A model generated the notes under the pieces. The model saw only the letters and a list, made by a program, of their open reading frames with translations, searched no databases and had not been told where the DNA came from. A DNA stretch of 64,000 nucleotides from Astropecten irregularis (lineage: Eukaryota > Echinodermata > Asteroidea > Paxillosida > Astropectinidae), in assembly GCA_963971285.1 (NCBI GenBank), contig OZ020246.1, forward strand, positions 14,119,217 through 14,183,216, read 5' to 3'. Within the stretch, counting starts at the first letter, position 1; each line of letters opens with the position of its first letter. Below, one piece after another: positions 9,960 to 64,000 of the stretch. The position numbers and the translations under genes were made by a program.

Positions 9960-10574
9960 CTAGACCTGTGTTTGTTGACAAACACTGAGCTGTTTCGCGT
10001 ATGTTTTAAAAATAATATGAAAAACAAACATGAACGCAATTGGCCCAGTACAGAGAAATAGCGGTGTTTAAATTGTCGTAAACAACTACATGTATCAGGA
10101 GCGTCGTCACTCGTCCACCCATACTCGTACACTGTATACAAATTGGTGTACATACAGTACACATGCCCATGAGAAACACAGAATAGCCGAGTCTATTATA
10201 GACCAGCGCGCGTAGTATGTATGGTTGTGCATATGGGCGGTGGAAAAAACAAAATGATTGATTTTCTAGCTATGTCGTGCTCCGTTCACGTGTACACAAT
10301 TGGCGCACTACTATAGATAGCCATATGAGCGGTCCAAAAAGTTCCAAAGACCGTGTTTTGTGTTATGTTTGACTCTAAATGGCAAAATTAATTATTCAAA
10401 AAATCAATAAAAAATCAGTCGATGACGTCATCGTGACGTTACTTCACATTTGGAATAGAAATAGCATTTCCTACCTACCCACCAAGTTTCATCATGATCG
10501 GATATTCGCTTATATGTTTTTCTGGGAAAAAATGGCAAAATTTAATATTCAAAAATCAAAAAAAAATCAGCCGA

Positions 10575-10593
10575 TGACGTCATCGTGACGTCA
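10575..10593. promoter_or_regulatory. Paired TGACGTCA sites, 11-bp spacing (type B example)
   Basis: TGACGTCATCGTGACGTCA holds two full cAMP-response-element palindromes whose starts are 11 bp apart, about one helical turn. The same spacing recurs in all element types here. Confidence 0.6.
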
Positions 10594-10804
10594 CTTCAGA
10601 TTGAGGATACTAGTACCATTCCCTACATATCCACCAAGTTTCATCACCATCGGATATTCCCTTATATGTGAATCAGAAAATCGGCTTTTTGATGACGTCA
10701 TCATGACGTCACCACTTTTTGGTATTTTATGGCACGTGCCTATAGCCTAACAAACATTTTACCGAAAAAATTTCGAAAATACGATTTGTCGTTCATGAGA
10801 TATA

Positions 10805-11392
10805 ATAATAATAATAATAGTTTATTTTTATAAAGCGCATTACATCATTAAAATAAAATCTCAATGCGCTTAACAAAGTAAGTTAATAACATGATCATAA
10901 AACATAGAAGTTCATTAAGGGTCATTTAAAATATTTTAGAAAACAATTATTAATAATACTACACATTAAGCACTCATTAGAAAAACATTTAGAATAATTA
11001 AAATCTAAGGTGAAACAGAAACATTGATTAAAATACACATTTAGACTCAATGGACAAAAAAATAAAATATACACACAATTATTTTACGGTTGATCAGAAA
11101 CCAACAAGTTAAGACTCATTTAAAATGCATTTAAAATACAAAAGTTTACAGTGGATTAGAAATTCATTTAGATTAAAATCACAATCACTGGAATATTACT
11201 TAAAAACCTGACGAAAATAATATGTTTTAAGTGCTGATTTAAAAGATGAAAAAGAAGGTGCATTTCGAATAAAATAAGGAAGTGTATTCCACACACTGGG
11301 TGCTGAAACTGAGAATGCACGCCTGCCATAATGTTTCTGATTAAAACGAGGCTGAACTAAGCGTGTTTCAGTGGAAGAGCGAGTGAATATTA
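10805..11392 (-). pseudogene. 5'-truncated CR1/L2-like LINE inserted in the type B element
   Basis: The insertion is flanked by the 8-bp duplication GAGATATA (10797-10804 and 11393-11400); the uninterrupted site can be read at 59024-59040 in another B copy. On the minus strand the frame 11392-11196 encodes the end of a non-LTR polymerase: TRSSTETRLVQPRFNQ, then YGRRAFSVSAPSVWNTLPYF, IRNAPSFSSFKSALKTYYF and a stop. The RAFSV-AP--WN-LP--IR-A-S--SFK--LKT motif is typical of CR1/Daphne/L2-type LINEs. A 3' UTR follows, ending in a (TTA)n tail at 10805-10819. It is dead on arrival: only the last 65 codons remain. Confidence 0.9.
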
Positions 11393-11747
11393 GAGATATA
11401 AAGAAAAGGTCCAAAAATTGAATAATTCGTATAAAATCGCACGATGACGTCATCAACACGTGACTGCAATTTTTGTCTATAACACGTCCCCATATACTTA
11501 CATACCAAGTTTGAGTTGCATCGGACTTGCCGTTCCGGAGTTAAAGAGCCCTAAAATTTGCACTTTTATGATTACGTAACTGTGCACGTGATGACGTCAC
11601 GATGACGTACATACGCGGGACACTATTCGGGGTGCTGGTCTAACTATGTGCCAAGTATGAAGTTAATCGGACTTGGCATAATGGTAGAAGTGACTTGTAG
11701 AAAATCCCTGTGTTAAGTCTATGGGAAAAAAGTGGAAAAAGAAAAAA

Positions 11748-13114
11748 CTAGAGGTTGTGTCTGTTGAAAACAGAACACATGGCTTTTCCGCATATGATAT
11801 AAAATATTTCTCAAATTAAATACACATCGCTGATGTTGTTTGATTCAGCAAATAAATGATATCGTCTTCGGGAAATGATTTCTCGTTTTAATCAAAAGAG
11901 GGCGTTATTCAAAACCGTGCGCTCGGAAAACTGAATCCTGCATTACGGGTGCAGCCAAGTAAATACATGTAGTGGCAAAATGGGTCCGCCGGCCGAGCTC
12001 ATGAATAAAAGTTAAGCACTCAATATATTTGAAATAAGAGAGTTGTGAGAGCTATGAAAATGAAGGATTGAAGAAATATGGCACTGGACCTCCTGCCTGG
12101 TCTCCGGGCTTCCATTTGTGACCATTTTTGATGCAATTGGGTGAGAAAGTGGGTCTATTTCAGCCGCTTTGCAGAGGGATGTTTTTTTTTAATGGCTTCT
12201 TTGACTGGAGTGATCCGTACCTTGTTTTAGGGGTGGTCAGCTGAGAATGAGTATAACTCAAAAATTCAACGGTCACCCTACCATAAAATGAAAAGGAAAT
12301 GAAAGGTTACATGTTCATCATCATTTTTCTGTGCAACTTGAACAGCTGTGAGAGTTCTGTATATTTTTTAACGATTTTTGAAGTTTGGGGATTTATCACC
12401 GTTGTCCGCGGGAGTTTATTTACTTGGGTGCAACCTTACGTACTGAAAACGGTATAAGTAGATTGCTGCGCGTGCGTGGTTGTCTGGTCAAAACACGGCT
12501 CAAAACCAGCATTTACGCTGCATTGCTGGCAACTATGATAAGGAAGTTAATAAAAAAGCGGCATATATAATCCAGGCAATCAATCATTTGAACGCGCCTT
12601 GTATTTATGTTGTTTAAATCGTATGTTTTATTTAATGACCAATATTTTCACGTACAGAGCAACCTAAATCGATAGCATTTCGATTAAGATTTGGTGCTGG
12701 TATTTAATGATATATAAAAGGAATTACGTGCAAACTATGGCAAGTTGTAAACGACGTTTTGTGTCACGCAATCGGACATGTGCATTGTATGTTACAAACA
12801 GTGAATTGCGTACGTAGGCCTACATGTACACTGTACATAGTGCATGAGAAATTGATCGAGCTTTATGTTTAGTACAACGACCATGTTCACGTAATCTGTG
12901 TACAAAGTGAACGGGCTATAAAATATTTTTAAAAAATCATATAAAATCAAGTTTTGACGTCATGATGGTGAAAAGTTTCGGGGCACAACTACCCTATATG
13001 GACTTCATTCAGACCAAGTTTGGTTAAGATCGGCTGTTTTAAAGTAACCAAAGTGCCGCGCAGAAAAATCTGTGTACAAAGTCTATGGGCCACAGAACAA
13101 ACTCAAAAAAAATA
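11748..13114 (+). mobile_element. Type A1 hairpin element, copy 1 (1367 bp)
   Basis: Starts CTAGAGG and a 5' hairpin with arms TGTGTCTGTT / AACAG-A-ACACA and loop GAA, then GGCTTTTCCGC. By eye it matches the unit at 15267-16633 base for base, same length. It ends ACTCAAAAAAAATA just before the next CTAG, without a 3' hairpin. A 61-codon open frame in the middle recurs in copies but shows no domain and is taken as chance. Confidence 0.87.
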
Positions 13115-13381
13115 CTAGAGGTTGTGTCTGTTGAAAACAGAACACATGGCTTTTCCGCATATGATATAAAATATTTCTCAAATTAATACACATCACGTAT
13201 TTTGTTTGATTAAGACATAATGGTTTAAAAGTGACCATGTCTCAATGTAAAACTTAGTTTAACACAATTAGTTGCAGGGTTAATAGCCCCTAATTGAAGA
13301 CACTGTCATTCAGTTGGACATACAATGACATCATTATGATGACGTTGGAGAACCTGAGTGGTTTTGAGGATACATCATTAT

Positions 13382-13612
13382 ACAAATGACACAAAATCAT
13401 TTTGCGAATACAAAATCATTAGCGTATACAACATCATTCGCGAATACAACATCATTAGCCAATACAAAATCATTTGCGAATACAAATTCATTTGCAAATA
13501 GAAAATCATTAGCGAATACAAAATCATTTGCGATTACAAAATCATTGCGAGTACGTAATCATTTTTCGTATTCATTTGTCGAAGACGATATCATATGCGA
13601 ATATGCAAAATG
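13382..13612 (+). repeat. Degenerate 18-bp array (AATACAAAATCATTTGCG)
   Basis: About a dozen units of AATACAAAATCATT with GCG variants. The last units switch orientation, so CATATGCGAATATGCAAAATG forms partial inverted repeats. The open frame across it, rich in ANTKSF-like repeats, follows from an 18-bp period and is not evidence of a gene. Confidence 0.85.
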
Positions 13613-13625
13613 ATTTTGTTTTCGT

Positions 13626-13861
13626 AAACATTGCGTCAACTCGCAAACATTACGTCAACTCGCAAACATAACATCAACTCACAAACATTACATCAACTCG
13701 CAAACATTGCATCAACTCGCAAACATTGCGTCAACTCGCAAACATTACGTCAACTCGCAAACATTACGTCAACTCACAAACATTACGTCAACTCGCAAAC
13801 ATTACGTCAACTCGCAAACATTGCGTCAACTCAAAAACATTGCGTCAACTCAAAAACATTT
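13626..13861 (+). repeat. 19-bp array (AAACATTACGTCAACTCGC), 12 copies
   Basis: Regular 19-bp units with variants at ACG/GCG/ACA and CGC/CAC/CAA. Open frames of 64 and 79 codons cross it only because the unit lacks stops in those frames. Confidence 0.92.
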
Positions 13862-14224
13862 TGTGAATAATTCTGAAAAGTCAACAGACATACGGACTTG
13901 ACAATGAACATGTAAGTTTTACATACTGTATACAATGTTTTACACATGTTTTGGGAAATTGAGCCAATCGAGCATCACATCGTATGTTTTACTATGACCA
14001 TTATTTTCATGTCAATCGGGTAGAGTGAGAAAGATTGAACAATTTCTAAAAAATTAAGTGATGAAGTTGTCATGACTTCATAATTACAATCGCCAACCTC
14101 TATTTCCCAAACCTACCAATTTTCGAGGCGATCGGCCGTTCCTTCTATGTGTTATTAAAATTGTTTGAAAATGATATAAAAAAAAGACATACTTGCATTG
14201 TCTATGAGGGAAAATATAGTTTTG

Positions 14225-14460
14225 AGTCAACGGTCACTCGGACATCACGTCCCGGCCCAGTGCGCAAGCCACCGTTGGGCCGCCGGCGGTTCAGCAGCGG
14301 CTAAGCGGCATTGGCACGCCGCCCATTCACCGACCGTGTTCCGCCGGTGCATGGTGGTTGCCACTATGAAACGGCCGTGTAAAACGGACCACCGTGTACT
14401 AACAACGGTCGTCCAGCCGAGGTCGGGCCGATGGGGGACCGACGCTGACTGCATTTTGCA
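14225..14460. other. GC-rich segment inside type A2
   Basis: Sharp rise in GC and CpG (CCGGCCCAG, GGGCCGCCGGCGG, CCGCCGGTGCATGGTGG) in an otherwise AT-rich element, with several partial inverted repeats around CCACCGT/ACGGTGG. Both strands are open for short distances, with no domain. It recurs at 47671-47906 and, slightly diverged, at 63010-63215. Confidence 0.6.
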
Positions 14461-15239
14461 TTTAAATAGGCCTACGGAATAGAATATTATACAAAATTAT
14501 ATCGAGAACATGAAATCACTCTGATGACACTAAAGTCTAGGGGAAAGGACGTGACATATTGAATTTGTTCATGTGTAAAACTTATCATATTGCCACGTAC
14601 AGAAAAACAAAACAAATTATGGATCATTGCACTTTGCCATACAACTCTTCCAAAGAACTAAGTTGTACATTATAGCTAATATTCACGCGACCCATAAAAT
14701 TACGTACAATACTCCGCAACCTACATCGATAGCATTTCGATATTTGGTGCTGGTATTTAACGATATATAAAAAGTCTTACATGAAAATGTCTATGGCAAG
14801 ATTATAAACGAAGTTTCGATCGAGTCACGCAATCCGCGGACATTATTATGAATGCCATACACACACAGTGCAGTGAAATACATACGTGTAGTGCAGTGTA
14901 CATGTATGGGGAGAGTTGAGTCATTCGAGTATCGTATGTTTTGTACATGACCATATTGTCACGTAATCTGTGTACAAAGTTAACGGGCTGTGAGAAATAT
15001 TTAAAAATTCATATAAAATCAAGTCATAACGTCATGATGTCCAAAAGTTTCGGGAGACAACTACCCTATATGGACTTCCTTCAGACCAAGTTTGGTTAAT
15101 ATCGGCTGTCTAAAAATGACCAAAGTGGGGTCCAGAATGCCCCTGTGCTTTGTCTATGGGAATTTTGGCGACAAGAAGAGGAAGAGGAAGAAGAGGAAGA
15201 AGAAGAAGAAAAAAGAAAAAAAAACAGAACAGAAATAAA

Positions 15240-15264
15240 GGCTTTTCGCTTGCGCGAAAAAGCC
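15240..15264 (+). other. 3' terminal hairpin of A2 copy 1
   Basis: GGCTTTTCGC, loop TTGC, GCGAAAAAGCC, with one bulged base. The left arm matches the element's 5' box GGCTTTTCCGC. AA and the next CTAGA follow directly. Confidence 0.85.
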
Positions 15265-15266
15265 AA

Positions 15267-16633
15267 CTAGAGGTTGTGTCTGTTGAAAACAGAACACATG
15301 GCTTTTCCGCATATGATATAAAATATTTCTCAAATTAAATACACATCGCTGATGTTGTTTGATTCAGCAAATAAATGATATCGTCTTCGGGAAATGATTT
15401 CTCGTTTTAATCAAAAGAGGGCGTTATTCAAAACCGTGCGCTCGGAAAACTGAATCCTGCATTACGGGTGCAGCCAAGTAAATACATGTAGTGGCAAAAT
15501 GGGTCCGCCGGCCGAGCTCATGAATAAAAGTTAAGCACTCAATATATTTGAAATAAGAGAGTTGTGAGAGCTATGAAAATGAAGGATTGAAGAAATATGG
15601 CACTGGACCTCCTGCCTGGTCTCCGGGCTTCCATTTGTGACCATTTTTGATGCAATTGGGTGAGAAAGTGGGTCTATTTCAGCCGCTTTGCAGAGGGATG
15701 TTTTTTTTTAATGGCTTCTTTGACTGGAGTGATCCGTACCTTGTTTTAGGGGTGGTCAGCTGAGAATGAGTATAACTCAAAAATTCAACGGTCACCCTAC
15801 CATAAAATGAAAAGGAAATGAAAGGTTACATGTTCATCATCATTTTTCTGTGCAACTTGAACAGCTGTGAGAGTTCTGTATATTTTTTAACGATTTTTGA
15901 AGTTTGGGGATTTATCACCGTTGTCCGCGGGAGTTTATTTACTTGGGTGCAACCTTACGTACTGAAAACGGTATAAGTAGATTGCTGCGCGTGCGTGGTT
16001 GTCTGGTCAAAACACGGCTCAAAACCAGCATTTACGCTGCATTGCTGGCAACTATGATAAGGAAGTTAATAAAAAAGCGGCATATATAATCCAGGCAATC
16101 AATCATTTGAACGCGCCTTGTATTTATGTTGTTTAAATCGTATGTTTTATTTAATGACCAATATTTTCACGTACAGAGCAACCTAAATCGATAGCATTTC
16201 GATTAAGATTTGGTGCTGGTATTTAATGATATATAAAAGGAATTACGTGCAAACTATGGCAAGTTGTAAACGACGTTTTGTGTCACGCAATCGGACATGT
16301 GCATTGTATGTTACAAACAGTGAATTGCGTACGTAGGCCTACATGTACACTGTACATAGTGCATGAGAAATTGATCGAGCTTTATGTTTAGTACAACGAC
16401 CATGTTCACGTAATCTGTGTACAAAGTGAACGGGCTATAAAATATTTTTAAAAAATCATATAAAATCAAGTTTTGACGTCATGATGGTGAAAAGTTTCGG
16501 GGCACAACTACCCTATATGGACTTCATTCAGACCAAGTTTGGTTAAGATCGGCTGTTTTAAAGTAACCAAAGTGCCGCGCAGAAAAATCTGTGTACAAAG
16601 TCTATGGGCCACAGAACAAACTCAAAAAAAATA
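15267..16633 (+). mobile_element. Type A1 hairpin element, copy 2 (1367 bp)
   Basis: Indistinguishable by eye from 11748-13114 and nearly so from 48713-50079. Starts at the CTAG after the A2 3' hairpin and ends in the A1 A-rich tail with no 3' hairpin of its own. Identical A1 copies therefore flank A2 copy 1 on both sides. Confidence 0.87.
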
Positions 16634-17968
16634 CTAGAGGTTGTGTCTGTTGAAAACAGAACACATGGCTTTTCCGCATATGATATAAAATATTTCTCAA
16701 ATTAAATACACATCGCTGATGTTGTTTGATTCAGCAAATAAATGATATCGTCTTCGGGAAATGATTTCTCGTTTTCAAATCAAAAGAGGGCGTTATTCAA
16801 AACCGTGCGCTCGGAAAATACGGGTGCAGCCAAGTAAATACATGTAGTGGCAAAATGGGTCCGCCGAGCTCATGAATAAAAGTTAAGCACTCAATTTATT
16901 TGAAATAAGAGAGTTGTGAGAGCTATGAAAATGAAGGATTGAAGAAATACGGCACTGGGCCTCCTGCCTGGACTCTGGGCTTCCATTTGCGACCATTTTT
17001 GATGCAATTGGGTGAGAAAGTGGGTCTATTTCAGCCGCTTTGCAGAGGGATGTTTTTTTTGTATGGCTTCTTTGACTGGAGTGATCCGTACCTTGTTTTA
17101 GGGGTGGTCAGCTGAGAATGAGTATAACTCAAAAATTCAACCGTCACCCTACCATAAAATGAAAAGAAAATGAAAGGTTACATGTTCATCATCATTTTTC
17201 TGTGCAACTTGAACAGCTGTGAGAGTTCTGTATATTTTTTTACGATTTTTGAAGTTTGGGGATTTATCACTGTTGACCGCGGGAGTTTATTTACTTACTG
17301 AAAACGGTATAAGTAGATTGCTGCGCGTGCGCGGTTGTCTGGTCAAAACACGGGTCAAAATCAGCATTTACGCTGCTTTGCTGGCAACTATGATAAGGAA
17401 GTAAATAAAAAAGCGGCATATATAATCCAGGCAATCAAACATCTGAACGCGCCTTGTATTTATGTTGGTTAAATCGTATGTTTTATTTAATGACCAATAT
17501 TTTCACGTACAGAGCAACCTACATCGATAGCATTTCGATTAAGATTTGGTGCTGGTATTTAATGATATATAAAAGGAATTACGTGCAAACTATGGCAAGT
17601 GTAAACGACGTTTTGTATCACGCAATCGGACATGTGCATTGTATGTTATACACAGTGAATTGCGTACGTAGGCCTACATGTACACTGTACATAGTGTATG
17701 GGGAATTGATCGAGCTTTATGTTTAGTACAACGACCATGTTCACGTAATCTGTGTACAAAGTGAACGGGCTAGTTTGATAATTAAAAAAATCATATAAAA
17801 TCAAGTTTTGACGTCATGATGACGAAAAGTTTCGGGGAACAACTACCCTATATGGACTTCATTCAGACCAAGTTTGGTTAAGATCGGCTGTTTCAAAGTG
17901 ACCAAAGTGCCGCGGACAAAAATCTGTGTACAAAGTCTATGGGCCACAGAAGAAACTCAAAAAAAATA
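16634..17968 (+). mobile_element. Type A1 hairpin element, copy 3 (1335 bp)
   Basis: Same order of landmarks as copy 1, with small deletions (CTGAATCCTGCATT missing after CTCGGAAAA; GGGTGCAACCTTACG missing near 17296) and scattered substitutions. Confidence 0.87.
17566..17576 (+). promoter_or_regulatory. TATA-like word TATATAAAAGG (type A1 example)
   Basis: A good match to an animal TATA box, kept in A1 units; A2 carries TATATAAAAAG at the same place. A transcript from here would cover the last third of the unit. There is no initiator or expression evidence. Confidence 0.3.
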
Positions 17969-19319
17969 CTAGAGGTTGTGTCTGTTGAAAACAGAACACA
18001 TGGCTTTTCCGCATATGATATAGAATATTTCTCAAATTAAATACACATCGCTGATGTTGTTTGATTCAGCAAATAAATGATATCGTCTTCGGGAAATGAT
18101 TTCTCGTTTTAATCAAAAGAGGGCGTTATTCAAAACCGTGCGCTCGGAAAATACGGGTGCAGCCAAGTAAATACATGTAGTGGCAAAATGGGTCCGCCGA
18201 GCTCATGAATAAAAGTTAAGCACTCAATATATTTGAAATAAGAGAGTTGTAAGAGCTATGAAAATGAAGGATTTAAGTAATACGGCACTGGACCTCCTGC
18301 CCGGTCTCTGGGCTTCCATTTGTGACCATTTTTGATGCAATTGGGTGAGAAAGTGGGTCTATTTCAGCCGCTTTGCAGAGGGATGTTTTTTTTTTAAATG
18401 GCTTCTTTGACGGGAGTGATCCGTACCCTTGTTTTAGGGATGGTCAGCTGAGAATGAGTATAACTCAAAAATTCAACGGTCACCCTACCATAAAATGAAA
18501 AGAAAATGAAAGGTTACATGTTCATCATCATTTTTCTGTGCAACTTGAACAGCTGTGAGAGTTCTGTATATTTTTTAACGATTTTTGAAGTTTGGGGACT
18601 TATCACTGTTGTCCACGGGAGTTTATTTACTTGGGTGCAACCTTACGTACTGAAAACGGTATAAGTAGATTGCTGCGCGTGCGTGGTTGTCTGGTCAAAA
18701 CACGGCTCAAAATCAGCATTACGCTGCTTTGCTGGCAACTATGATAAGGAAGTAAATAAAAAAACGGCATATATAATCCAGGCAATCAAACATCTCAACG
18801 CGCCTTGTATTTATGTTGTTGACATCGTATGTTTTATTTAATGACCAATATTTTCACGTACAGAGCAACCTACATCGATAACATTTCGATTAAGATTTGG
18901 TGCTGGTATTTAATGATATATAAAAGGAATTACGTGCAAACTATGGCAAGTGTAAACGACGTTTTGTATCACGCAATCGGACATGTGCATTGTATGTTAC
19001 AAACAGTGAATTGCGTACGCAGGCCTACATGTACACTGTACATAGTGTATGGGGAATTGATCGAGCTTTATGTTTAGTACAACGACCATGTTCACGTAAT
19101 CTGTGTACAAAGTGAACGGGCTAGTTTGATAATTAAAAAAATCATATAAAATCAAGTTTTGACGTCATGATGACGAAAAGTTTCGGGGAACAACTACCCT
19201 ATATGGACTTCATTCAGACCAAGTTTGGTTAAGATCGGCTGTTTCAAAGTGACCAAAGTGCCGCGGACAAAAATCTGTGTACAAAGTCTATGGGCCACAG
19301 CACAAACTCAAAAAAAATA
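17969..19319 (+). mobile_element. Type A1 hairpin element, copy 4 (1351 bp)
   Basis: A1 landmarks complete, 5' hairpin intact, no 3' hairpin. Close to copy 5, with which it shares GACGAAAAGTTTCGGGGAAC. Confidence 0.87.
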
Positions 19320-20668
19320 CTAGAGGTTGTGTCTGTTGAAAACAGAACACATGGCTTTTCCGCATATGATATAAAATATTTCTCAAATTAAATACACATC
19401 GCTGATGTTGTTTGATTCAGCAAAAAAATGATATCGTCTTCGGGAAATGATTTCTCGTTTTAATCAAAAGAGGGCGTTATTCAAAACCGTGCGCTCGGAA
19501 AATACGGGTGCAGCCAAGTAAATACATGTAGTGGCAAAGTGGGTCCGCCGAGCTCATGAATAAAAGTTAAGCACTCAATATATTTGAAATAAGAGAGTTG
19601 TAAGAGCTATGAAAATGAAGGATTGAAGAAATATGGCACTGGACCTCCTGCCCGGTCTCTGGGCTTCCATTTGTGACCATTTTTGATGCAATTGGGTGAG
19701 AAAGTGGGTCTATTTCAGCCGCTTTGCAGAGGGATGTTTTTTTTTAATGGCTTCTTTGACTGGAGTGATCCGTACCTTGTTTTAGGGGTGGTCAGCTGAG
19801 AATGAGTTTAACTCAAAAATTCAACGGTCTCCCTACCATAAAATGAAAAGAAAATGAAAGGTTACATGTTCATCATCACTTTTCTGTGCAACTTGAACAG
19901 CTGTGAGAGTTCTGTATATTTTTTAACGATTTTTGAAGTTTGGGGATTTATCACTGTTGTCCACGGGAGTTTATTTACTTGGGTGCAACCTTACGTACTG
20001 AAAACGGTATAAGTAGATTGCTGCGCGTGCGTGGTTGTCTGGTCAAAACACGGCTCAAAATCAGCATTTACGCTGCTTTGCTGGCAACTATGGTAAGGAA
20101 GTAAATAAAAAAACGGCATATATAATCCAGGCAATCAAACATCTCAACGCGCCTTGTATTTATGTTGTTTAAATCGTATGTTTTATTTAATGACCAATAT
20201 TTTCACGTACAGAGCAACCTACATCGATAGCATTTCGATTAAGATTTGGTGCTGGTATTTAATGATATATAAAAGGAATTACGTGCAAACTATGGCAAGT
20301 GTAAACGACGTTTTGTATCACGCAATCGGACATGTGCATTGTATGTTACAAACAGTGAATTGCGTACGCAGGCCTACATGTACACTGTACATAGTGTATG
20401 GGGAATTGATCAAGCTTTATGTTTAGTACAACGACCATGTTCACGTAATCTGTGTACAAAGTGAACGGGCTAGTTTGATAATTAAAAAAATCATATAAAA
20501 TCAAGTTTTGACGTCATGATGACGAAAAGTTTCGGGGAACAACTACCCTATATGGACTTCATTCAGACCAAGTTTGGTTAAGATCGGCTGTTTCAAAGTG
20601 ACCAAAGTGCCGCGGACAAAAATCTGTGTACAAAGTCTATGGGCCACAGCACAAACTCAAAAAAAATA
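19320..20668 (+). mobile_element. Type A1 hairpin element, copy 5 (1349 bp)
   Basis: Close to copy 4. Ends CTCAAAAAAAATA before a type D unit, so copies 2-5 form a four-unit A1 run closed by D. Confidence 0.87.
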
Positions 20669-20759
20669 CTAGACATCTATGGCTGTTGCAAACAGCACAT
20701 AGGGCTTTTTCGCAAATGATATTATAAATTGAATTACAAATATTAACTGTTATACAAAG

Positions 20760-44238: not shown

Positions 44239-44240
44239 AA

Positions 44241-52783: not shown

Positions 52784-54124
52784 CTAGAGTTTATGGCTGT
52801 TGAAAACAGCACATATGGCTTTTCCGCATAATGATATAGAATATTTCTCTAATTAAATACACATCGCTGATGTTGTTTGATTCAGCAAATAAATGATATC
52901 GTCTTCGGGAAATGATTTCTCGTTTTAATCAAAAGAGGGCGTTATTCAAAACCGTGCGCTCGGAAAATACGGGTGCAGCCAAGTAAATACATGTAGTGGC
53001 CAAATGGGTCCGCCGAGCTCATGAATAAAAGTTAAGCACTCAATATATTTGAAATAAGAGAGTTGTGAGAGCTATGAAAATGAAGGATTGAAGAAATACG
53101 GCACTGGACCTCCTGCCCGGTCTCTGGGCTTCCATTTGTGACCATTTTTGATGCAATTGGGTGAGAAAGTGGGTCTATTTCAGCCGCTTTGCAGAGGGAT
53201 GGTTTTTTTTGTGAAAATGGCTTCTTTGACTGGAGTGATCCATACCTTGTTTTAGGGGTGGTCAGCTGAGAATGAGTATAACTCAAAATTCAACGGTCAC
53301 CCTACCATAAAATGAACAGAAAATGAAAGGTTACATGTTCATCATCATTTTTCTGTGCAACTTGAACAGCTGTGAGAGTTCTGTATATTTTTTAATGATT
53401 TTTGAAGTTTGAGGATTTATCACTGTTGTCCACGGGAGTTTATTTACTTGGGTGCAACCTTACGTACTGAAAACGGTATAAGTAGATTGCTGCGCGTGCG
53501 TGGTTGTCTGGTCAAAACACGGGTCAAAACCAGCATTTACGCTGCTTTGCTGGAAACTATGATAAGGAAGTAAATGAAAAAACGGCATATATAAGCCAGG
53601 CAATCAAACATCTGAACGCGCCTTGTATTTATGTTGTTGACATCGTATGTTTTATTTAATGACCAATATTTTCACGTACAGAGCAACCTACATCGATAGC
53701 ATTTCGATTAAGATTTGGTGCTGGTATGTAATAATATATAAAAGGAATTACGTGCAAACTATGGCAAGTGGTAAACGACGTTTTGTGTCACGCAATCGGA
53801 CATATGCACAGTGAATTGCGTACCTGGGCCTACATGTACACTGTACATAGTGTATGGGACATTGATCGAGCTTTATGTTTTGTACAACGACCACGTTCAC
53901 GTAATCTGTGTACAAAGTGAACGGGCTATAAAATATTTTTTAAAAATCATATAAAATCAAGTTTTGACGCCATGATGGTGAAAAGTTTCGGGGCACAACT
54001 ACCCTATATGGACTTCATTCAGACCAAGTTTGGTTAAGATCGGCTGTTTTAAAGTAACCAAAGTGCCGCGCAGAAAAATCTGTGTACAAAGTCTATGGGC
54101 CACAGAACAAACTCAAAAAAAATA
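52784..54124 (+). mobile_element. Type A1' hairpin element, copy 9 (1341 bp)
   Basis: Same 5' hairpin class as copies 7 and 8, but a more diverged body (GTGAAAATGG insertion near 53211, GACGCCATGATGG near 53966). Last unit before type D copy 3. Confidence 0.87.
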
Positions 54125-55206
54125 CTAGAGTTTATGGCTGTTTGAAACAGCACATAAGGCTTTTCCGCATATGATATAAATAGCTTGTCAATCAGAATTG
54201 TGTCATTAGAAAGACCTTGCCTAACGTTCACTTTTGGTGAAAGAATCATGATCCTAGCTCTTACCACTTTTAAATGAGGAGCAACTTCCGGTTTGACCGG
54301 AAGTAGAGGTCACAGAGGTCAAGCGATGTGTCACAAAGAAAGATCTTGCCTAACATTAATATTTAGTGAAAGATCCATGATTGTAGCTCTTACCACTTTT
54401 AAATGAGGAGCAACTTCCGGTTTGACCGGAAGTAAAGGTCATCGAGGTCAAGTAATGTGTCACAAAGAAAGACCTTGCCTAACGTTCACTTTTGGTGAAA
54501 GAATCATGATCCTAGCTCTTACCACTTTTAAATGAGGAGCAACTTCCGGTTTGACCGGAAGTAGAGGTCACAGAGGTCAAGCGATGTGTCACAAAGAAAG
54601 ATCTTGCCTTACATTAATATTTAGTGAAAGAATCATGATTGTAGCTCTTACCACTTTTAAATGAGGAGCTACTTCCTGTTTGACCGGAAGTAGAGGTCAC
54701 AGAGGTCAAGTAATGTGTCACAAAGAAAGACCTTGCCTAACGTTCACTTTTGGTGAAAGAATCATGATCCTAGCTCTTACCACTTTTAAATGAGGAGCTA
54801 CTTCCTGTTTGACCGGAAGTAGAGGTCACAGAGGTCAAGTAATGTGTCACAAAGAAATACCTTGCCTAACAATCACTTTTGGTGAAAGAATCAACCTAAT
54901 ATCTCAAACCGTTGATTTTTTGTTGATTTTTAAAGATTTTGATTATTAAATTCAAATCGCTGGTCACATGACACCTGATGACGTCATGATGACGTAATTT
55001 ACGCGGGCACATCTATGCTATATGGACTTTATTTAGACCAAGTTTGGTTAAGATTGACTGTTTTAAAATGACCAAAGTGGAGCGTAGAACAATCGTGTAC
55101 AAATTCTCATAGACTTGAGGAGAAGAAAAAGAAGAAGAAGAAGAAGAAAAAAAAAAAAAATCAGAACAAACGCAATACCTTTTCCGATTAAAATCGAAAA
55201 AGCCAA
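54125..55206 (+). mobile_element. Type D hairpin element, copy 3 (1082 bp)
   Basis: 5' hairpin arms TTATG-GCTGTT / AACAGC-A-CATAA, then GGCTTTTCCGC. Five 129-bp repeats, GATGACGTCATGATGACG, the CCAAGTTTGGTTAA module, a (GAA)n/A tract, and a 3' hairpin at 55178-55204 with one broken pair. Closes a run of four A1/A1' units, as D copy 1 does. Confidence 0.85.
54200..54900 (+). repeat. 129-bp tandem repeats (5 copies) in D copy 3
   Basis: Landmark positions 54276, 54405, 54534, 54663 and 54792, exact 129-bp spacing. The first units alternate CGTTCACTTTTGG with ATTAATATTTAG, giving a 258-bp dimer. Confidence 0.9.
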
Positions 55207-56388
55207 CTAGACCTGTGTTTGTAGTTAACAAACACTGAGCTGTTTCGCGTCATGTTTTAGAAAATATATATAATATATATAAAATTGACCCAGGACAGAG
55301 AAATAGTTTATCAGCGGTGTATTGTCCTAAACAACTACCAGGAGCGTCGTCACTCATCCATCAATTATACACGTATACAGATAGATGTACATACACACGG
55401 CCATGAAAAACACAGAAATGGCAGTCTATTATAGGCCAGCGCGCATAGCATGTATGGTTGTGCTTATGGGCGGCGGAAACAGCAAAATGACTGATTTTCT
55501 AGGTTGTCGTGCTACGTTTACGTGTACACAATTGGTCCACTAGTGTTGATAGCCATATCAGCGGTCCAAAATGTTCCAAAGCCCGTGTTTTGTATTATGT
55601 TTGACTCTAAATGGTTAAATTAATTATTAAAAAAAATCAAAAATCAGTTGATGACGTCATCGTGACGTCACTTCATATTAAGGATACTAGTACCATTTCC
55701 TACCTACCCACCAAATTTCATTTCGATCGGATATTCGCTTCTATGTGTTTCCGGGAAAAAATGGCAAAATTAAATATTCAAAAATCAATAAAAAATCAGC
55801 CGATGACGTCATTGTGACGTCACTTCAGATTTAGGATACTAGTACCATTCCCTACCTATCCACCAAGTTTCATTACCATCGGATATTTTCTTATATGTGA
55901 ATCAGAAAATCGGCTTTTTGATGACGTCATCATGACGTCACCAATTTTTGGTATCTTGTGGCATGTGCCTATAGCCTAACAAACATTTTGCAGAAAGAAT
56001 TTTGAAAATACCATTTGTCGTTCATGAAATATACAGAAAAGGTCCAAAAATTTAATAATTCGTATAAAATCACATGATGACGTCATCAACACGTGACTGC
56101 AATTTTTGTCTATAACACGTCCCCATATACTTACATACCAAGTTTGAGTTGCATCGGACTTGCCGTTCCGGAGATAAAGAGCCCTAAAATTTGCATGTTT
56201 ATGATGACGTAATTGTGCACGTGATGACGTCACGATGACGTACATACGCGGGACACTATTCGGGGTGGTGGTCTTACTATGTGCCAAGTATGAAGTTGAT
56301 TGGAATTGGCATAATGGTAGAAGTGACTTGTAGAAAATCCCTGTGTTAAGTCTATGGGAAAAAAGTGGAAAAAGAAAAAAAAAAAAAA
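55207..56388 (+). mobile_element. Type B hairpin element, copy 2 (outer host of a nest)
   Basis: CTAGACC, a 5' hairpin GTGTTTGT-AGT-TAACAAACAC (loop widened) and GAGCTGTTTCGCG. The body is collinear with 9960-11747 without the LINE. Its A-rich tail is broken at 56388 by type C; more A-rich tail follows C at 58460-58488. Confidence 0.85.
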
Positions 56389-58459
56389 CTAGAAGTTTGT
56401 CTGTCAACTGACAGAGCAAATGACTTTTTCGCCATTTTTCAATTCGATTTTTTTTGCTCAAAGAACGCGCCTTCAATGAAGTATAAAACCTGAAAACAGC
56501 ATGTTAAATTTCCATTGTGATTTTTAGGCATCAATGTTTTATTTCGTTCCACTATGTATTGTCCGCTTTAACGATTATTGTGAAGCAATGTAATACCTAA
56601 AACTTTGCCACAGATTTCAATCAAAAGTTTGATGAGGTCATAGGTCAAATTTTTAATAACCACATTAGGCCTACTGCCAGAGACTGACATCGTTGAAACC
56701 AAGTTCGTATCTTGCTCCAATTTTAAATTTGACCCTTCCAGTTTTGACCGATTTTGATCACGTAAGTGTCACGAAACTTCACGCACACGAGACAAATATG
56801 TTGTTGCTTGACACATTTTTAAAAACAAGAAAGTCAAATACGATTGAATATTCAAAATTCTGTTAAAAACATTACTTGTTGACGTCATCATGTTCTTGGG
56901 TCGCCCATGTACAAAGGTTTTTCATTATTACAATTTGATGATGATCCAAACTTGAAAGAGCAATAAAGTTGTGTAAGGGGAAAAACGCATACAAACTGAA
57001 TGGGCTGTTCGCGTTTAATACTGAACACACATAGACCAGGAGCCCAGAACATTTATTCATGCGAAAAGCGCCGGAACCGTCGACCTCATATGTTGAAAGG
57101 ATATGATGGGGACATCACAAAAATGCATTGCTGCCTGGTTTAGGGCGTGGCCTAAGCTCCGAAATTACGTAATAAAGACGCCATTACCGAAAAACCTATT
57201 TTTGACAATATCTCGAAAATTATACATAACAGGGATGGGGTGAACGAACTTTGAGACAACGCACGGGTTGTGCAATGCACGAAAAATGTGTACATTGTTG
57301 GTTGACGCACGTGGTTTGTACAAGTACACATGTACACGTGAGTTGTGTTGTGTTGTTTAATTCGCCGCGTTCGAGACACAGTTAATTCGGGGTGTCCAAA
57401 TACAATTTCAAGCTTATCGCAGGGCATGTCCAAGCTCACTGATCACATAGAAACATAAATATACCACAGAACTACCTTTATCCTACTATTTATAGGAAAA
57501 TCAAGATTGTATCTCTTATGGTTGATTTTTCAGCTTTTTTAAAGAAAAAAATGGTTTTTCCATTGTAACTTCCGGACTGATGACGTCATCAATCTAAATC
57601 TTGGCACCGTTGTTGTCTGGTTGAAGCTCATCTTAAATATATATTTTGGAGCAATTATCTCAAACTTCGCCACAAATATCAACTAAAAATGCATTTTTGA
57701 ATTTGTTCAACTTGTCGCTAGAGGGCGCTCGAATGTTTGATGACGTCATCAATCAAATTGGTAAACACCTCATCAATGCCAGATACTGACATCGTTGAAA
57801 CCAAGTTAAAATCTTTCTCCAATTTTAAATTATAAGACATTTCCTGTTTTGACGTTTTCGACCGGAAGTAAGGGTCACGTGACTTCACGCACACGAGATA
57901 AAATTAAGAACTAGAGTTACTTGACACATTTTTAAAAATAGTAAGGCAAGGGAAAGTACGGTTGAATTGATATCGATTTTTGAAGATTAAAACCTATCCA
58001 TTTTTGATTGCTTGTAATATGACACCTGATGACGTCACGATGACGTCATTCTTTATGGTGATACTCTGTCATAGGATCTATGAATCCTCAAAGTTTAGTC
58101 AAAATCAGAGATTGTTTAATTGCCAAAAAGGCGAACGGAAAAATGTAAATTTATTCTTGGAAAACGTGTACAAAGTGAATGGGACAAAATAAATATTCAA
58201 AAATCTATAAAAAATCACGTGATGACGTCATCATGACGTCATTGCTTTTAGGATCATCCTTGCATTAGGGTCCTTCATTGGTATAAGTTTGATGATGATC
58301 CGAACTTGCAAAAGCACTTAAGTCGTGCTTAGAAAAAACGTGTACAAATTGAATAGGCTCATTGGAGAAGAAGAAGAAGAAGAAGAAGAAGAGGAAGAGG
58401 AAAAAAAAAAATCAGAACAAAAAGAATAACTTTTTCGCACTCGAAAGTGCGAAAAAGTC
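56389..58459 (+). mobile_element. Type C hairpin element (2071 bp), complete
   Basis: 5' CTAGAAG, hairpin arms TTTG-T-CTGTCA / TGACAG-AG-CAAA, box GACTTTTTCGCC. 3' (GAA)n tract, ATCAGAACAAAAAG box and a 12-bp perfect hairpin at 58429-58458. It sits inside the A-rich tail of B copy 2, so both termini can be read. The body has an internal duplication (about 56600-56860 and 57660-57970) and several TGACGTCA sites. Short frames on both strands show no domain. Confidence 0.87.
58429..58458 (+). other. 3' terminal hairpin of type C
   Basis: ACTTTTTCGCAC / GTGCGAAAAAGT with loop TCGAAA, the longest perfect terminal stem in the window. The left arm repeats the 5' box ACTTTTTCGC. Confidence 0.92.
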
Positions 58460-58488
58460 AAAAAAAAAAAAAAGAAAGAAAAAAAAAA
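58460..58488 (+). other. A-rich remnant of the type B tail after the C insertion
   Basis: Runs of A with two G interruptions join the end of type C to the next type B start. This is the interrupted tail of B copy 2. Confidence 0.65.
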
Positions 58489-59448
58489 CTAGACCTGTGT
58501 TTGTTGACAAACACTGAGCTGTTTCGCGTATGTTTTAAAAATAATATGAAAAATAAACATCAACGCAATTGGCCCAGTACAGAGAAATAGCGGTGTTTAA
58601 ATTGTCGTAAACAACTACATGCGTCGTCACTCGTCCATCAATACTCGTACACTGTATACAGATTGGTGTACATACACATGCCCATGAGAAACACTGAATA
58701 GCCGAGTCTATTATAGACCAGCGCGCGTAGTATGTATGGTTGTGCATATGGGCGGTGGAAAAAAAAATGAGTGATTTTCTAGCTATGTCGTGCTCCGTTC
58801 ACGTGTACACAATTGGCGCACTACTATAGATAGCCATATCAGCGGTCCAAAAAGTTCCAAAGACCGTGTTTTGTGTTATGTTTGACTCTAAATGGCAAAA
58901 TTAATTATTCAAAAAATCAATAAAAAATCAGTCGATGACGTCATCGTGACGTTACTTCACATTTGGAATAGAAATAGCATTTCCTACCTACCCACCAAGA
59001 ATTTCGAAAATACGATTTGTCGTTCATGAGATATAAAGAAAAGGTCCAAAAATTGAATAATTCGTATAAAATCGCACGATGACGTCATCAACACGTGACT
59101 GCAATTTTTGTCTATAACACGTCCCCATATACTTACATACCAAGTTTGAGTTGCATCGGACTTGCCGTTCCGGAGATAAAGAGCCCTAAAATTTGCACAT
59201 TTATGATTACGTAACTGTGCACGTGATGACGTCACGATGACGTACATACGCGGGACACTATTCGGGGTGCTGGTCTAACTATGTGCCAAGTATGAAGTCA
59301 ATCGGAATTGGCATAATGGTAGAAGTGACTTGTAGAAAATCCCTGTGTTAAGTCTATGGGAAAAAAGTGGAAAAAGAAAAAAAAAAAAAAAAAAATAAAT
59401 AAATAAAATAACGAAAACAAAAGCTGTTCCGCTGCATGCGAAACAGCT
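58489..59448 (+). mobile_element. Type B hairpin element, copy 3 (internally deleted)
   Basis: Intact 5' palindrome GTGTTTGTTGACAAACAC and box. About 280 bp present in B copy 1 are missing at CACCAAG|AATTTCG (58999). Ends with AACGAAAACAAAAG and a 3' hairpin at 59422-59448. It shows the uninterrupted LINE target ATGAGATATAAAG. Confidence 0.85.
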
Positions 59449-59490
59449 AATAACAAAAACAAAAGCTGTTCCGCTGCATGCGAAACAGCT
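59422..59490 (+). other. Two stacked type B 3' hairpins
   Basis: AGCTGTTCCGC, loop TGCAT, less one base, GCGAAACAGCT, at 59422-59448 and again at 59464-59490, separated by AATAACAAAAACAAA. The first ends B copy 3. The second is best read as the displaced end of an enclosing B element (copy 2). Confidence 0.8.
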
Positions 59491-59502
59491 CATAAAAAAA
59501 AA

Positions 59503-60655
59503 CTAGACTGTGTTTGTTGACAAACACTGAGCTGTTTCGCGTATGTTTTTATAAATAATATGAAAAACAAACATGAACGCAATTGTCCCAGTACAGAGAA
59601 ATTGCGGTGTTTTAATTGTCGTAAACAACTATTTAAGGAGCGTCGTCACTCGTCCATACACACGGCCATGAGAGACACAGAAATGGCAGAGTCTACTATA
59701 GGCCAGCGCGTAAAGTATGTATGGTTGTGCATGGGCGGTGAAAACAGCAAAATGACTGATTTTCTAGCTCGTCGTACTACGTTTACATGTACACAATTGG
59801 CCCACTACTATGGATAGCCATATCAGCAGTCCAGGAATTTCCAAGGCCCGTGTTTTGTGTTATGTTTGACTCTAAATGGCAACATTAATGATTAAAAATA
59901 ATCAATAAAAATTCAATCGATGACGTCATCGTGACGTCACTTCACATTAAGGATACTAGTACTATTTCCTACCTACTCACCAAGTTTCATTTCAATCTGA
60001 TACTCGCTTCTATGTGTTTCCGGGAAAAAATGGCAAAATTAATTATTCAAAAATCAATAAAAAATCAGCCGATGACGTCATCGTAACGTCATTTCAACTT
60101 TTTAATACTAGTATCATTCCCTACCTATCCACCAAGTTTCATCACCATCGGATATTGCCTTATATGTTAATCTGAAAATCGGCTTTTTGATGACGTCATC
60201 ATGACGTCACAACTTTTTCGTATTTTGTGGCATGTGCCTTTAGCCTAACAATCATTTTGCAGAAAGAATTTCGAAAATACCATTTGTCGTTCATGAAATA
60301 TACAGAAAAGGTCCAAAAATTGAATAATTCGTATAAAATCACATGATGACGTCATCAACACGTGACTGCAATTTTTGTCTATAACACGTCCCCATATACT
60401 TACATACCAAGTTTGAGTTGCATCGGACATGCCGTTCCGGAGATAAAGAGCCCTAAAATTTGCACTTTTATGATGACGTAATTGTGCACGTGATGACGTC
60501 ACGATGACGTACTTACGCGGGACACTATTCGGGGTGATGGTCTAACTATGTGCCAAGTATGAAGTTGATCGGAATTGGCATAATGGTAGAAGTGACTTGT
60601 AGAAAATCCCTGTGTAAAGTCTATGGGAAAAAAGTGGAAAAAGAAAAAAAAAAAA
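59503..60655 (+). mobile_element. Type B hairpin element, copy 4 (1153 bp)
   Basis: CTAGACTGTG with the 5' palindrome GTGTTTGTTGACAAACAC. The body is collinear with copy 2 and has repeated CRE-pair modules. It ends GGAAAAAGAAAAAAAAAA with no 3' hairpin, cut by the next CTAG. Confidence 0.85.
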
Positions 60656-60814
60656 CTAGAAATTGTGTCTGTTGAAAACAGAACACAAGGCTTTTCCGTT
60701 TTATAGAAAAATCAACATAACCTTATACACACAAAGACATTTTGATTAAGATCTTAAGTTTTATACTTTTGAAGTATGCACCTTTAATCATACACTCACG
60801 TGACTTGGTCATAT

Positions 60815-61170
60815 TTCTGTCACAAAGAAAGACCTTGCCTAACATTGACTTTTGGCGAAAGAATCATGATCATAGCCCTTACAACTTTTAAATCAGAAGC
60901 TACTTCCTGTTTGACCGGAAGTAGAGGTCGTAGAGGTCAAGCAATGTATCACAAATGAAAGACCTTGGCTTACATTGTCTATTGGTGAAAGAATCATGAT
61001 CATACCTCTTACCACTTTTAAATAAGGAGCTACTTCCTGTTTGACCGGATGTAGACGTCACAGAGGTCAAGCAATGTGTCACAATGAAAGACCTTGCCTA
61101 ACATTGACTTTTGGTGAAAGAATCATGATCACAGCTCTTACCACTTTTAAATGAGGAGCTACTTCCTGTT
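60815..61170 (+). repeat. 129-bp repeats (about 3 copies)
   Basis: Same unit as in type D, with substitutions (CCGGATGTAGACGTCAC in one), ending abruptly in mid-unit. Confidence 0.85.
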
Positions 61171-61870
61171 TGCCCTGTACAAGTCAATGGGCTATAGCGT
61201 GAATAATATTTTTAAAAATCATAAAAAATAAAAAAATTACGCTGTCTTGACGTAACTTCAGAATTACAATCCCGAACCTCCAATCCACCAATGTACCAAT
61301 TTTCAAGGCGATCGGCTGTTCCTACTATGTGTTATAAAAATCACATTTTTTTATGACGTCATGATGACGTCACCGATTTTTTGTCTATGCAGTGTTCATC
61401 TATGGTGTATGCTGAAGAATTATCAAAAAGAAATTCAAAGATATCTTGTTTCGTTTACAAGATATCGTAAAAAGAACTTTAATGACCCAAAATTTCAATA
61501 AATCATAAAAAATCAAGGAATGACGTCATGATGACGTCATTGCAATTTTTCGATATAACACTTCCCGACTTAGATACATACCAAGTTTCAACTCAATCGG
61601 ACTTAGTTTTCGTTCATAATTGATGTCTGAAGTTTGCCCCTTTAAGACACTGTCACGTGACACCTGATGACGTCATGATGACGAAAAGTTTCGGTGCACA
61701 TTGACGCTATTGGGACTTTGTTTTGACCAAGTTTGGTTAAGATCGGCTGTTTAAAAAGGGTCAAAGTGGGGTGCAGAATGCCCCTGTGCTTTGTCTATAG
61801 GAATTCCAAACGACAAGAAGAAGAAGAAGAAGAAGAAGAAAAAAAAAAAAAATCAGAACAAAAACAATAC

Positions 61871-61893
61871 CTTTTCCGTTGAACACGGAAAAG
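61871..61893 (+). other. 3' terminal hairpin of the chimeric element
   Basis: CTTTTCCGT, loop TGAAC, ACGGAAAAG: a 9-bp perfect stem. The 5' box of the same element is GGCTTTTCCGT, so the T after CCG is shared between the two ends. Confidence 0.88.
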
Positions 61894-61900
61894 CCAAAAA

Positions 61901-64000
61901 CTAGAGATTGTGTCTGTTGAAAACAGAACACATGGCTTTTCCGCATGATACATAAAACATTTGTCAAATTAATGCACATCCATTATTTTGTTTGATTAAG
62001 ACATATGGTTTAAAGGTATCCATATTTCAATGTAGAAAATTTAAGTTTGACCCATTTGTTGCAGGGTTTATGGAACACATTGACATTTAGAAATGTGTCA
62101 CAAAGAATAACCGTGCCTAGCATTGACTTTTGGTGAAAGAATTATGATCAAATCTCTTACCACTTTTAAATGAGGAGCTACTTCCTGTTTGACCGGAATT
62201 AGAGGTCACAGAGGTCCAGCAATGTGTCACAAAGAAAGACCTTCCCTATCATTGACTTTTGGTAAAAGAATCATGATCACTTTTGTTGAAAACATTACGT
62301 CAACTCACAAACATTGCGTCAACTCGCAAACATTACGTCAACTCGCAAACATTACGTCAACTCGCAAACATTGCGTCAACTGGCAAACATTACGTCAACT
62401 CGCAAACATTACGTCAACACGCAAACATAACGTCAACTAGCAAACATTGTGTCAACTCGCAAACATTACGTCAACTCGCAAACATTACGTCAACTCGCAA
62501 ACATTACATCAACTCGCAAACATTGCGTCAACTCGCAAACATTGCGTCAACTCGCTAACATTACGTCAACTCGCAAACATTACGTCAACTCGCAAACATT
62601 ACGCCAACTCGCAGACATTACGCCAACTCGCAGACATTACGTCAACTCGCAAACATTTTGTGAATAATTCTGAAAAGTCAACAGACATACGGATTCGACA
62701 ATGAACATGTAAGTTTTACATACTGTAAACAATGTTTTACACATGTTTTGGGAAATTGAGACAATCGAGCATCACATCGTATGTTTTACTATGATCATTA
62801 TTTTCATGTCAATCGGGTAGCGTGGGGAAGATTGAAAAATTTATAAAAGATTAAGTGATGAAGTTGTCATGACGTCATTATTAATCCTCTATTTCCCGAA
62901 CCTACCAATTTTCGATGCGATCGGCCGTTCCTTCTATGTGTTATTAAAATTGTTTGAAAATGATATAAAAAAGACGTACGTGCATTGTCTATTTGGGAAA
63001 ATATAGTTTTGAGTCAACGGTCAATCGGACATCACGTCCCGGCCCAGTGCGCAAGTCAAAGTCGGGCCGCCGGCGGTTCAGCAGCGGCTAAGCGGCATCG
63101 GCACGCCGCCCATCCACCGACCGTGGTCCGCCGGTGCATGGTGGTTGCCACATATGAAACAGCCGTGTAAAACGGACCACCATGTACTAACTAACAACGG
63201 TCGTCCAGCCGACTGTATTTTGCATTAAAAAAGGCCTACGGAATAGAATATTTATACAAAATTATATCGAGAACATGAAATCACTCTGATGACACTAAAT
63301 TCTAGGGGAAATGGCGTGACATAATTTAATTTGTTCATGTGTAAAACTTATCATTATTGCCACGTACAAAAAAAAAAATTATGGATCATTGCACTTTTCA
63401 ATACAACTCTTCCCAAGTATTAAGTTTTACATGTATAGCTAATATTAACGCGACCCATAAAATGACGTACAATACTCCACAACCTACATCGATAGCATTT
63501 CGATATTTGTTGCTGGTATTTAACGATATATAAAAAGTCTTACATGAAAATGTCTATGGAAAGATTATAAACGAAGTTTTGATCGAGTCACGCAATCCGC
63601 GGACATTATTATGAATGCCATACACACAGTGCAGTGAATTGCGTACCTACAATGCAATGTACATGTACGGGGAGAGTTGAGTCATTCGAGCATCATATGT
63701 TTTGTACACGACCATATTGTCACGTAATCTGTGTACAAAGTTAACGGGCTGTGAGAAATATTTAAAAATTCATATAAAATCAAGTCATGACGTCATGATG
63801 TCGAAAAGTTTCGGGAGACAACTACCCTATATGGACTTCCTTCAGACCAAGTTTGGTTAAAATCGGCTGTTTAAAAATGGCAAAAGTGGGGTGCAGAATA
63901 CCCCTGTGCTTTGTCTATGGGATTTTGGCGACAAGAAGAGGAAGAGGAAGGAAGAAAAAAAAAAAAAAACAGAACAGAAACAAAGGCTTTTCGCTTGCGC
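61901..64000 (+). mobile_element. Type A2 hairpin element, copy 3 (runs off the window)
   Basis: CTAGAGATTGTGTCTG 5' hairpin; one to two 129-bp repeats (62090-62285) where copies 1 and 2 have the 18-bp array; a 19-copy 19-bp array; the GC-rich segment (63010-63215); TATATAAAAAG; CATGACGTCATGATG; a purine tract; and the left part of a 3' hairpin at the window edge. More diverged than copies 1 and 2. Confidence 0.85.
62289..62657 (+). repeat. 19-bp array (AAACATTACGTCAACTCGC), 19 copies
   Basis: Same unit as 13626-13861 but expanded from 12 to 19 copies with other variants (ACGCCAACTCGCAGAC twice). The four overlapping frames here are products of the period. Confidence 0.92.

Follow-up and report, generated by a model that had tools for sequence, protein, structure and literature searches.

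Terminal hairpins with paired changes in a head-to-tail array of probable non-autonomous Helentrons of Astropecten irregularis

What kind of element ends, copy after copy, in a hairpin whose letters change while its pairing is kept? This question is raised by a stretch of 64,000 nucleotides (nt) of the Astropecten irregularis genome, hereafter the window (contig OZ020246.1, our C9:14119217-14183216, within a 475.7-Mb genome), in which repeats joined at CTAGA junctions occupy positions 9960-64000. The initial annotation, made from the letters of the window, proposed selection on a folded strand in a family that it did not recognise. The analyses presented here indicate that the region almost certainly consists of non-autonomous Helentrons (HINEs) piled up head to tail and falling into four or more related types (A/A1, B, C and D); Helentrons are a known kind of transposon, proposed to replicate by a rolling-circle mechanism. 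In the best-supported reading, the elements are gene-less, belong to the HINE/DINE-1 type of the Helitron2 branch and are read on the minus strand. In the papers cited, Helentrons/HINEs are marked by hairpins at both ends, asymmetric inverted repeats, a T-rich target, tandem repeats and an endonuclease-bearing partner; here the anatomy and the partner gene identify the elements as such, the view that the family is of no recognised kind is not supported, and an unexplained repeat family is now placed. The paired-change hairpins are real, but they are a known feature of Helentron-type ends, because compensatory change and competition by inverted repeats had already been proposed in PMC2374699 and PMC3627910 (these and the other papers are cited here from extracts). 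The window contained one open reading frame of at least 150 amino acids (aa) with a common start, a Pfam scan of six window stretches gave no match above the cut-off, and two exact patterns of element ends found no match in viral contigs.

Structure of the element ends

The most complete elements showed, on the minus strand, 5′ TT plus an inverted repeat in a hairpin, a T-rich stretch or microsatellite, a body that often contained tandem repeats, a 3′ inverted repeat, a 3′ hairpin, TCTAG and T. The A-type element at 13115-15266 reads TTGGCTTTTTCGCG...GCGAAAAGCC at its start, that is, the 5′ hairpin followed by a TGTTCTG motif, the T-rich microsatellite and the body, and carries on its 3′ side GCGGAAAAGCC, a near-inverse of the start, followed by the hairpin noted in the initial annotation and TCTAG. 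That hairpin had been called 5′; it is present, but the Helentron convention, which here reads the minus strand, makes it the 3′ terminal hairpin. A second hairpin, missing from the earlier description, lies at the opposite end of many elements. Several bodies contained tandem repeats of 18, 19 or 129 base pairs (bp), and three B-type bodies a 152-bp repeat.

Twenty-three junctions were taken (9960, 11748, 13115, 15267, 16634, 17969, 19320, 20669, 21611, 22874, 44241, 46561, 48713, 50080, 51433, 52784, 54125, 55207, 56389, 58489, 59503, 60656 and 61901). CTAGA with a hairpin a few bases further was present at all of them, and the arm sequences quoted previously, as well as the bulged A of the A and D types on the plus strand, were all found. 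In the B-type end at 9960-9998, for instance, the arms GTGTTTG/CAAACAC are followed by TCTAG. The 34-mers adjoining CTAG comprised 12 distinct sequences. With DNA parameters, 11 of these had folding energies of -5.4 kcal/mol or below, while the one at 44241, with one broken pair, gave -3.6. Among 91 distinct flanks of other CTAG sites, used as control, 5.5% reached -4 and the best -6.8, the ranges overlapping with those of the junctions. Singly, the hairpins were not extreme: ranked against 4,000 34-mers drawn at random from the window, 11 of the 12 were in the top 1-5% and the remaining one was at 12%; the regularity is the constant position of the hairpin beside CTAG. CTAGA occurred 74 times in the window (54 ± 8 expected), and it does not imply a junction, as it also exists without such a hairpin in the 914-nt units described below.

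The 3′ inverted repeat was found in 23/23 ends, 27-34 nt from the end and directly upstream of the 3′ hairpin, one stem pair of which is broken at 44241. Elements abut and most junctions double as the end of the neighbour, which ended in its own hairpin in 10 of 22 cases. Twenty-two elements were complete, the 23rd (61901) extending past the window, and 10 of them carried a 5′ hairpin with its asymmetric inverted repeat. This hairpin was preceded by a T run in the C-type element at 56389 and the B-type element at 58489, and by three extra Ts in that at 60656.

Candidate autonomous partners

Partners were sought through the Rep domain PF14214. The genome gave 149 matches, with 150 of the 154 candidates scored and some genes matched in several pieces, and none of 14 control genomes gave any; 18 of the 20 best matches lay within stop-free open frames that were 3,000 aa or longer. 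Family ends were located near six of the nine Rep places whose surroundings were fetched (on contigs C11, C20, C14, C1 at 12.3 Mb, C15 and C10). On C14, an element of 20,545 nt (7728821-7749365) has a 5′ hairpin at its start and, at its other end, the 3′ structure followed by TCTAG. Inside it, on the opposite strand, a long frame in two pieces matched DUF6570, Herpes_teg_N, OTU, Helitron_like_N (PF14214), PIF1 (helicase, PF05970) and Exo_endo_phos (endonuclease, PF03372), all above the cut-offs. Its left 668 nt were in register with window 21611-22873 at 88% and with 54125-55206 at 87%, and its right end aligned with 21611-22873 at 76%. Given these in-register ends, at least these two elements of the window look as if they arose by deletion from such Helentrons. 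The genome carries candidate autonomous Helentrons, of which the C14 element is one.

Two further observations concern the Rep genes. OTU and Herpes_teg_N, families linked to deubiquitination, were both matched in one transposon protein, that of the C14 element. In addition, C1:9970000-9989999 contained three Rep matches about 6.65 kb apart, at 73 bits weaker than most and with no family ends in the fetched 20 kb; this series is perhaps a different Helitron lineage in tandem.

Wherever ends were located near a Rep place (six cases, of which the C14 element is mapped at both ends), Rep lay on the opposite strand to them, and in the C14 element the CTAG hairpin lies upstream of the Rep gene. Inverted genes are described for some Helitron2 elements (PMC3627910) and one Drosophila Helentron (PMC4067079). 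Because of this orientation and of arrays of elements lacking any 5′ hairpin, which were found on at least three contigs, we considered whether replication may start at the CTAG hairpin, so that the "3′ hairpin" would serve as origin and the 5′ hairpin as a stop that can be dispensed with. We regard this as unlikely; if true, a lost stop would explain the arrays and also the window element that has one 3′ end and 22 5′ hairpins.

Paired changes in the terminal hairpins

If the Helentron-type ends are under selection for pairing, both arms should change together; the shuffle and permutation controls used here make no correction for relatedness, and independent end types are few. Among the 12 distinct 3′ ends, 92.1% of cells paired, compared with 82.6 ± 1.5% after shuffling (0/500 as high), and pairing was at most 46% when the partner arm was slid. 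Both sides changed at 4 of 11 pairs, a value reached in 16 of 500 shuffles, and the number of pair types was not above that of shuffles (323/500 as high). The outermost pair was tried and not kept, being unpaired in five of the 12 window ends. In a hand alignment with one end per arm type (five types), own arms formed 52 standard pairs, and out of 120 arm rearrangements only the true one gave 52; the runner-up reached 51 because two D-type ends are nearly interchangeable. Pairs o1, o3, i1, i2 and i6 of the 3′ stem switched to another standard pair between types, with the i2 switch depending on the hand alignment and o1 unpaired in several ends. Similarly, 82 of 88 cells of the 5′ hairpins paired (0/2000 column shuffles as high), and several 5′ stem pairs switched to another standard pair between types. 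The same score was reached by four of 40,320 whole-arm permutations, some of them because two elements have an identical 3′ arm.

We then turned to the rest of the genome with a pattern of 35 places, which leaves the outer arms free and covers A- and D-like ends only. It gave 1,804 matches (940 forward and 864 reverse), and the reversed control gave 0. Paired changes were counted at 100 listed places, all on contig C1 and not a random sample, which comprised 36 distinct sequences. The third outer pair was G-C in 51 copies, A-T in 46 and unpaired in 3; the first inner pair was T-A in 55, G-C in 42 and unpaired in 3; the outermost pair was unpaired in 34. Three copies carried an intermediate haplotype (TTATG.T with A.CATAA) that combines A-T with T-A, one switch without the other, and one copy had A-T at a further pair. 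The 19 arm haplotypes of these copies formed 96 of 114 pairs, compared with a shuffled mean of 84.5 (0/5000 as high, relatedness uncorrected), and their distinct sequences showed 90.3% pairing and at most 47.7% when slid. When the A-type end was used as DNA query, 1,548 first-look candidates were obtained, of which 40 were scored; all were 100% identical over 103 nt and they lay on eight contigs.

Hairpin differences inherited from a few founder types, with no selection on pairing, would agree with the scarcity of independent types, with shuffles that ignore relatedness and with a pair-type count not above them. This explanation seems quite improbable, as five 3′ stem pairs and several 5′ ones switch to standard pairs between types, the intermediate haplotype separates two of the switches and a single copy shows A-T at yet another pair. 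Altogether, the paired changes in the window and in the listed genomic copies support, short of a tree-aware test, the earlier proposal that selection acts on the folded strand, although not in an unrecognised family as then stated. The family offers a large natural data set for pairing selection at the ends of rolling-circle transposons, a proposal so far based on few elements. With 1,804 matches, four or more types of hairpin and numerous Rep frames free of interruption, it becomes feasible to run a tree-aware test of covariation and to assay mobilisation.

Target sites and evidence against a Helentron origin

T directly followed CTAG at 23/23 junctions compared with 15/43 distinct other CTAG flanks, and the mean T content of the 10 bases past CTAG was 83% (33% for the strand). 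A single half empty site was available: the left flank of the 9960 element ends within an A1-like body, and intact A1 copies read on CA|TTTTC at this point, which suggests a T-rich target, at A|T or inside a T run.

Several observations weigh against the identification as Helentrons. Targeting receives weak support from the T after CTAG, because in abutting arrays this base is mostly the start of the neighbour; the half site at 9960 is equally compatible with A|T and T|T; and no complete empty site was found, the right half of the A1 body broken at 9960 occurring nowhere in the window with another left flank. Twelve of the 22 complete elements lack a 5′ hairpin, nine being A1-type bodies that start TATTTTTTTTGAG and three B-type elements that start in a T run, which implies that this hairpin is dispensable or that such copies spread by duplication. 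The missing B-type 5′ hairpins might have been displaced by a neighbour splitting the element, but a search of the window with two exact motifs found them only at 59422-59490. The exact match of the two inverted repeats was 7-8 nt in six of the ten hairpin-bearing elements (10-12 nt with one mismatch), 10 nt in one and 11-12 nt in three, and the family rule of PMC4067079 is identity over at least 11 bp. In C (exact over 12 nt) and B (11 nt, or 13 nt over a longer stretch) the two repeats clearly corresponded to each other by type. In the A and D types the exact match was 7-11 nt and some 5′ ends fitted the 3′ repeat of another type better, which suggests an exchange of ends. As for the partner, the inverted repeats of the C14 element match exactly over 7 nt only, both ends were located for this Rep-bearing element alone and the ends at the other five places may belong to neighbours. 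No family end was found at three of the nine Rep places (C25, C1:9.97 Mb and C16), where the fetched stretches covered part of the neighbourhood only.

Relationship with known elements

As described in PMC4067079, PMC7492417 and PMC2374699, HINE/DINE-1 elements share with those of the window an inverted repeat that lies 2-4 nt inside the 5′ end and forms a palindrome, a microsatellite, central tandem repeats, a 3′ inverted repeat followed by a palindrome, a partner with Rep, helicase and endonuclease and, probably, a T-rich target. They differ in that the elements here end in TCTAG and lack the 5′ hairpin in 12 of 22 cases. In the mite HINEs, about 38-60 nt separate the 3′ inverted repeat and the terminus, compared with 27-34 nt here. 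The DINE-1 3′ stem differs between species, which suggested compensatory mutation, and it may act as a terminator (PMC2374699). Helitron2 (PMC3627910, 2013) likewise has hairpins at both ends and asymmetric inverted repeats, the 3′ repeat lying some 20-30 bp inside the element; compensatory changes were reported in its ends, and the gene orientation is inverted in some members. Its two inverted repeats are proposed to compete with the 5′ hairpin. In contrast, the partner found here carries an endonuclease domain, a mark of Helentrons according to PMC5148889.

Two further systems share the CTAG at the 3′ end. Oyster elements with Helitron and Helentron features, called possible intermediates in PMC7992393, have a CTAG 3′ end, subterminal inverted repeats and a 5′ inverted repeat, whereas their 5′ end is TC; this comparison is by description only. 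The proto-Helentron of Phytophthora (PMC4067079) starts with TT, ends in CTAG and inserts between A and T, but is described as having a typical Helitron structure, whereas the present elements carry the inverted repeats and a hairpin at both ends. In Fusarium, FoHelis (PMC5148889) show multiple 5′ termini and tandem and self-inserted copies, with hairpins at both ends in FoHeli1 and 2. Their repeated 5′ parts are tens of nt long, unlike the 21 units of 914 nt found here, and FoHeli1 and 2 end in ATTTT where the present elements end in TCTAG.

Canonical Helitrons (Helitron1), with a single 3′ hairpin, a CTAG end and insertion between A and T, were considered first on account of CTAG and the hairpin, and were dropped on the 5′ hairpin and the inverted repeats. 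The 3′ hairpin with CTAG (a CTRR end at 23/23 junctions) and the half empty site CA|TTTT fit them, but a CTAG end also occurs in the proto-Helentron and the oyster intermediates, as their extracts describe, and is not decisive. Moreover, the 5′ ends are TTGG, T runs or TATTT instead of TC, 10 of 22 elements have inverted repeats and a 5′ hairpin, and the partner frame includes an endonuclease domain, all of which renders a Helitron1 origin very improbable. A satellite array without transposition, in which the hairpins would be folded RNA signals, is extremely improbable: head-to-tail arrays, near-identical units and A1-type elements without 5′ hairpin would suit it, but different types with exact ends are mixed in the arrays, a coding element has the same ends, and it is contradicted by dispersed copies, with 1,804 pattern matches on both strands and the A-type end on eight contigs.

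For the Helentron reading we propose that the partner protein would act in trans on the HINE ends. The 3′ hairpin, formed in single-stranded DNA, would be the stop mark of the rolling-circle copy, and pairing between the 5′ and 3′ inverted repeats would compete with the 5′ hairpin, following models in PMC2374699 and PMC3627910. Hairpin termination together with this competition would select for pairing and not for letters. Targeting of T runs would turn element borders into targets and produce abutting arrays, which unequal exchange could multiply.

Composition of the array

The elements of the array, all on the minus strand, were as follows.
9960-11747, minus: B-type HINE, 3′ end at 9960 (TCTAG); without 5′ hairpin, starts in a T run
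9960-9998, minus: B-type 3′ end with 3′ inverted repeat GCGAAACAGCT, hairpin and TCTAG
11748-13114, minus: A1-type HINE of 1367 nt; 5′ end TATTTTTTTTGAG, no hairpin
13115-15266, minus: A-type HINE of 2152 nt with a hairpin at either end, an AAG-type microsatellite and tandem repeats of 18 and 19 bp
15267-20668, minus: four A1-type HINEs head to tail (15267, 16634, 17969, 19320), all without 5′ hairpin
20669-21610, minus: D-type HINE; both hairpins, 129-bp tandem repeats
21611-22873, minus: A-type HINE; both hairpins, ends in register with the 20.5-kb C14 Helentron
22874-44240, minus: composite HINE; copy with both ends plus 21 tandem 914-nt copies truncated at the 3′ end
44241-46560, minus: sister of the composite, 2320 nt; 914-nt part once, one 3′ stem pair broken
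46561-48712, minus: A-type HINE, 99.9% identical to 13115-15266
48713-54124, minus: four elements (48713, 50080, 51433, 52784), all with an A1-type body and lacking the 5′ hairpin; D-type 3′ ends in the last three
54125-55206, minus: D-type HINE; both hairpins, 129-bp repeats
55207-56388, minus: B-type HINE without 5′ hairpin (T run)
56389-58488, minus: C-type HINE; inverted repeats identical over 12 nt (TGACTTTTTCGC)
58489-59502, minus: B-type HINE; 5′ hairpin twice, 42 nt apart, inverted repeats identical over 13 nt
59503-60655, minus: B-type HINE without 5′ hairpin
60656-61900, minus: A-type HINE with both hairpins
61901-64000, minus: A-type HINE, 3′ end only, the remainder past the window

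The composite element (22874-44240) measures 21,367 nt, that is, 2173 nt plus 21 units of 914 nt. Its first part (22874-25046, 2173 nt) has both ends and a deletion relative to the sister at 44241. Each of the 21 units carries one 5′ hairpin, the 3′ stem core is absent from all of them, 19 are identical and the other two share one substitution, so that the composite has one 3′ end and 22 5′ hairpins in total. The array looks like a satellite forming from the 5′ part of a transposon. Copies with several 5′ termini are known in FoHelis (PMC5148889), and the extract of PMC7492417 mentions tandem Helitron copies truncated at the 3′ end. Elsewhere, in C1:12325000-12334999, four copies of the 5′ inverted-repeat motif occurred at 6438, 7348, 8258 and 9168 with 910-nt spacing, perhaps a second array resembling that of 914 nt.

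Duplication was also apparent at the level of whole elements. The pair at 13115-16633 is repeated at 46561-50079 with 99.9% identity, and 11748-13114 is identical to 15267-16633; these near-identical copies at 11748-16633 and 46561-50079 point to recent duplication inside the array. The 9960-11747 element contains extra sequence at about 10805-11392 that is absent from the other B copies. Outside the element array, positions 6247-7323 hold a 47-bp tandem repeat of about 23 copies with 96% matches.

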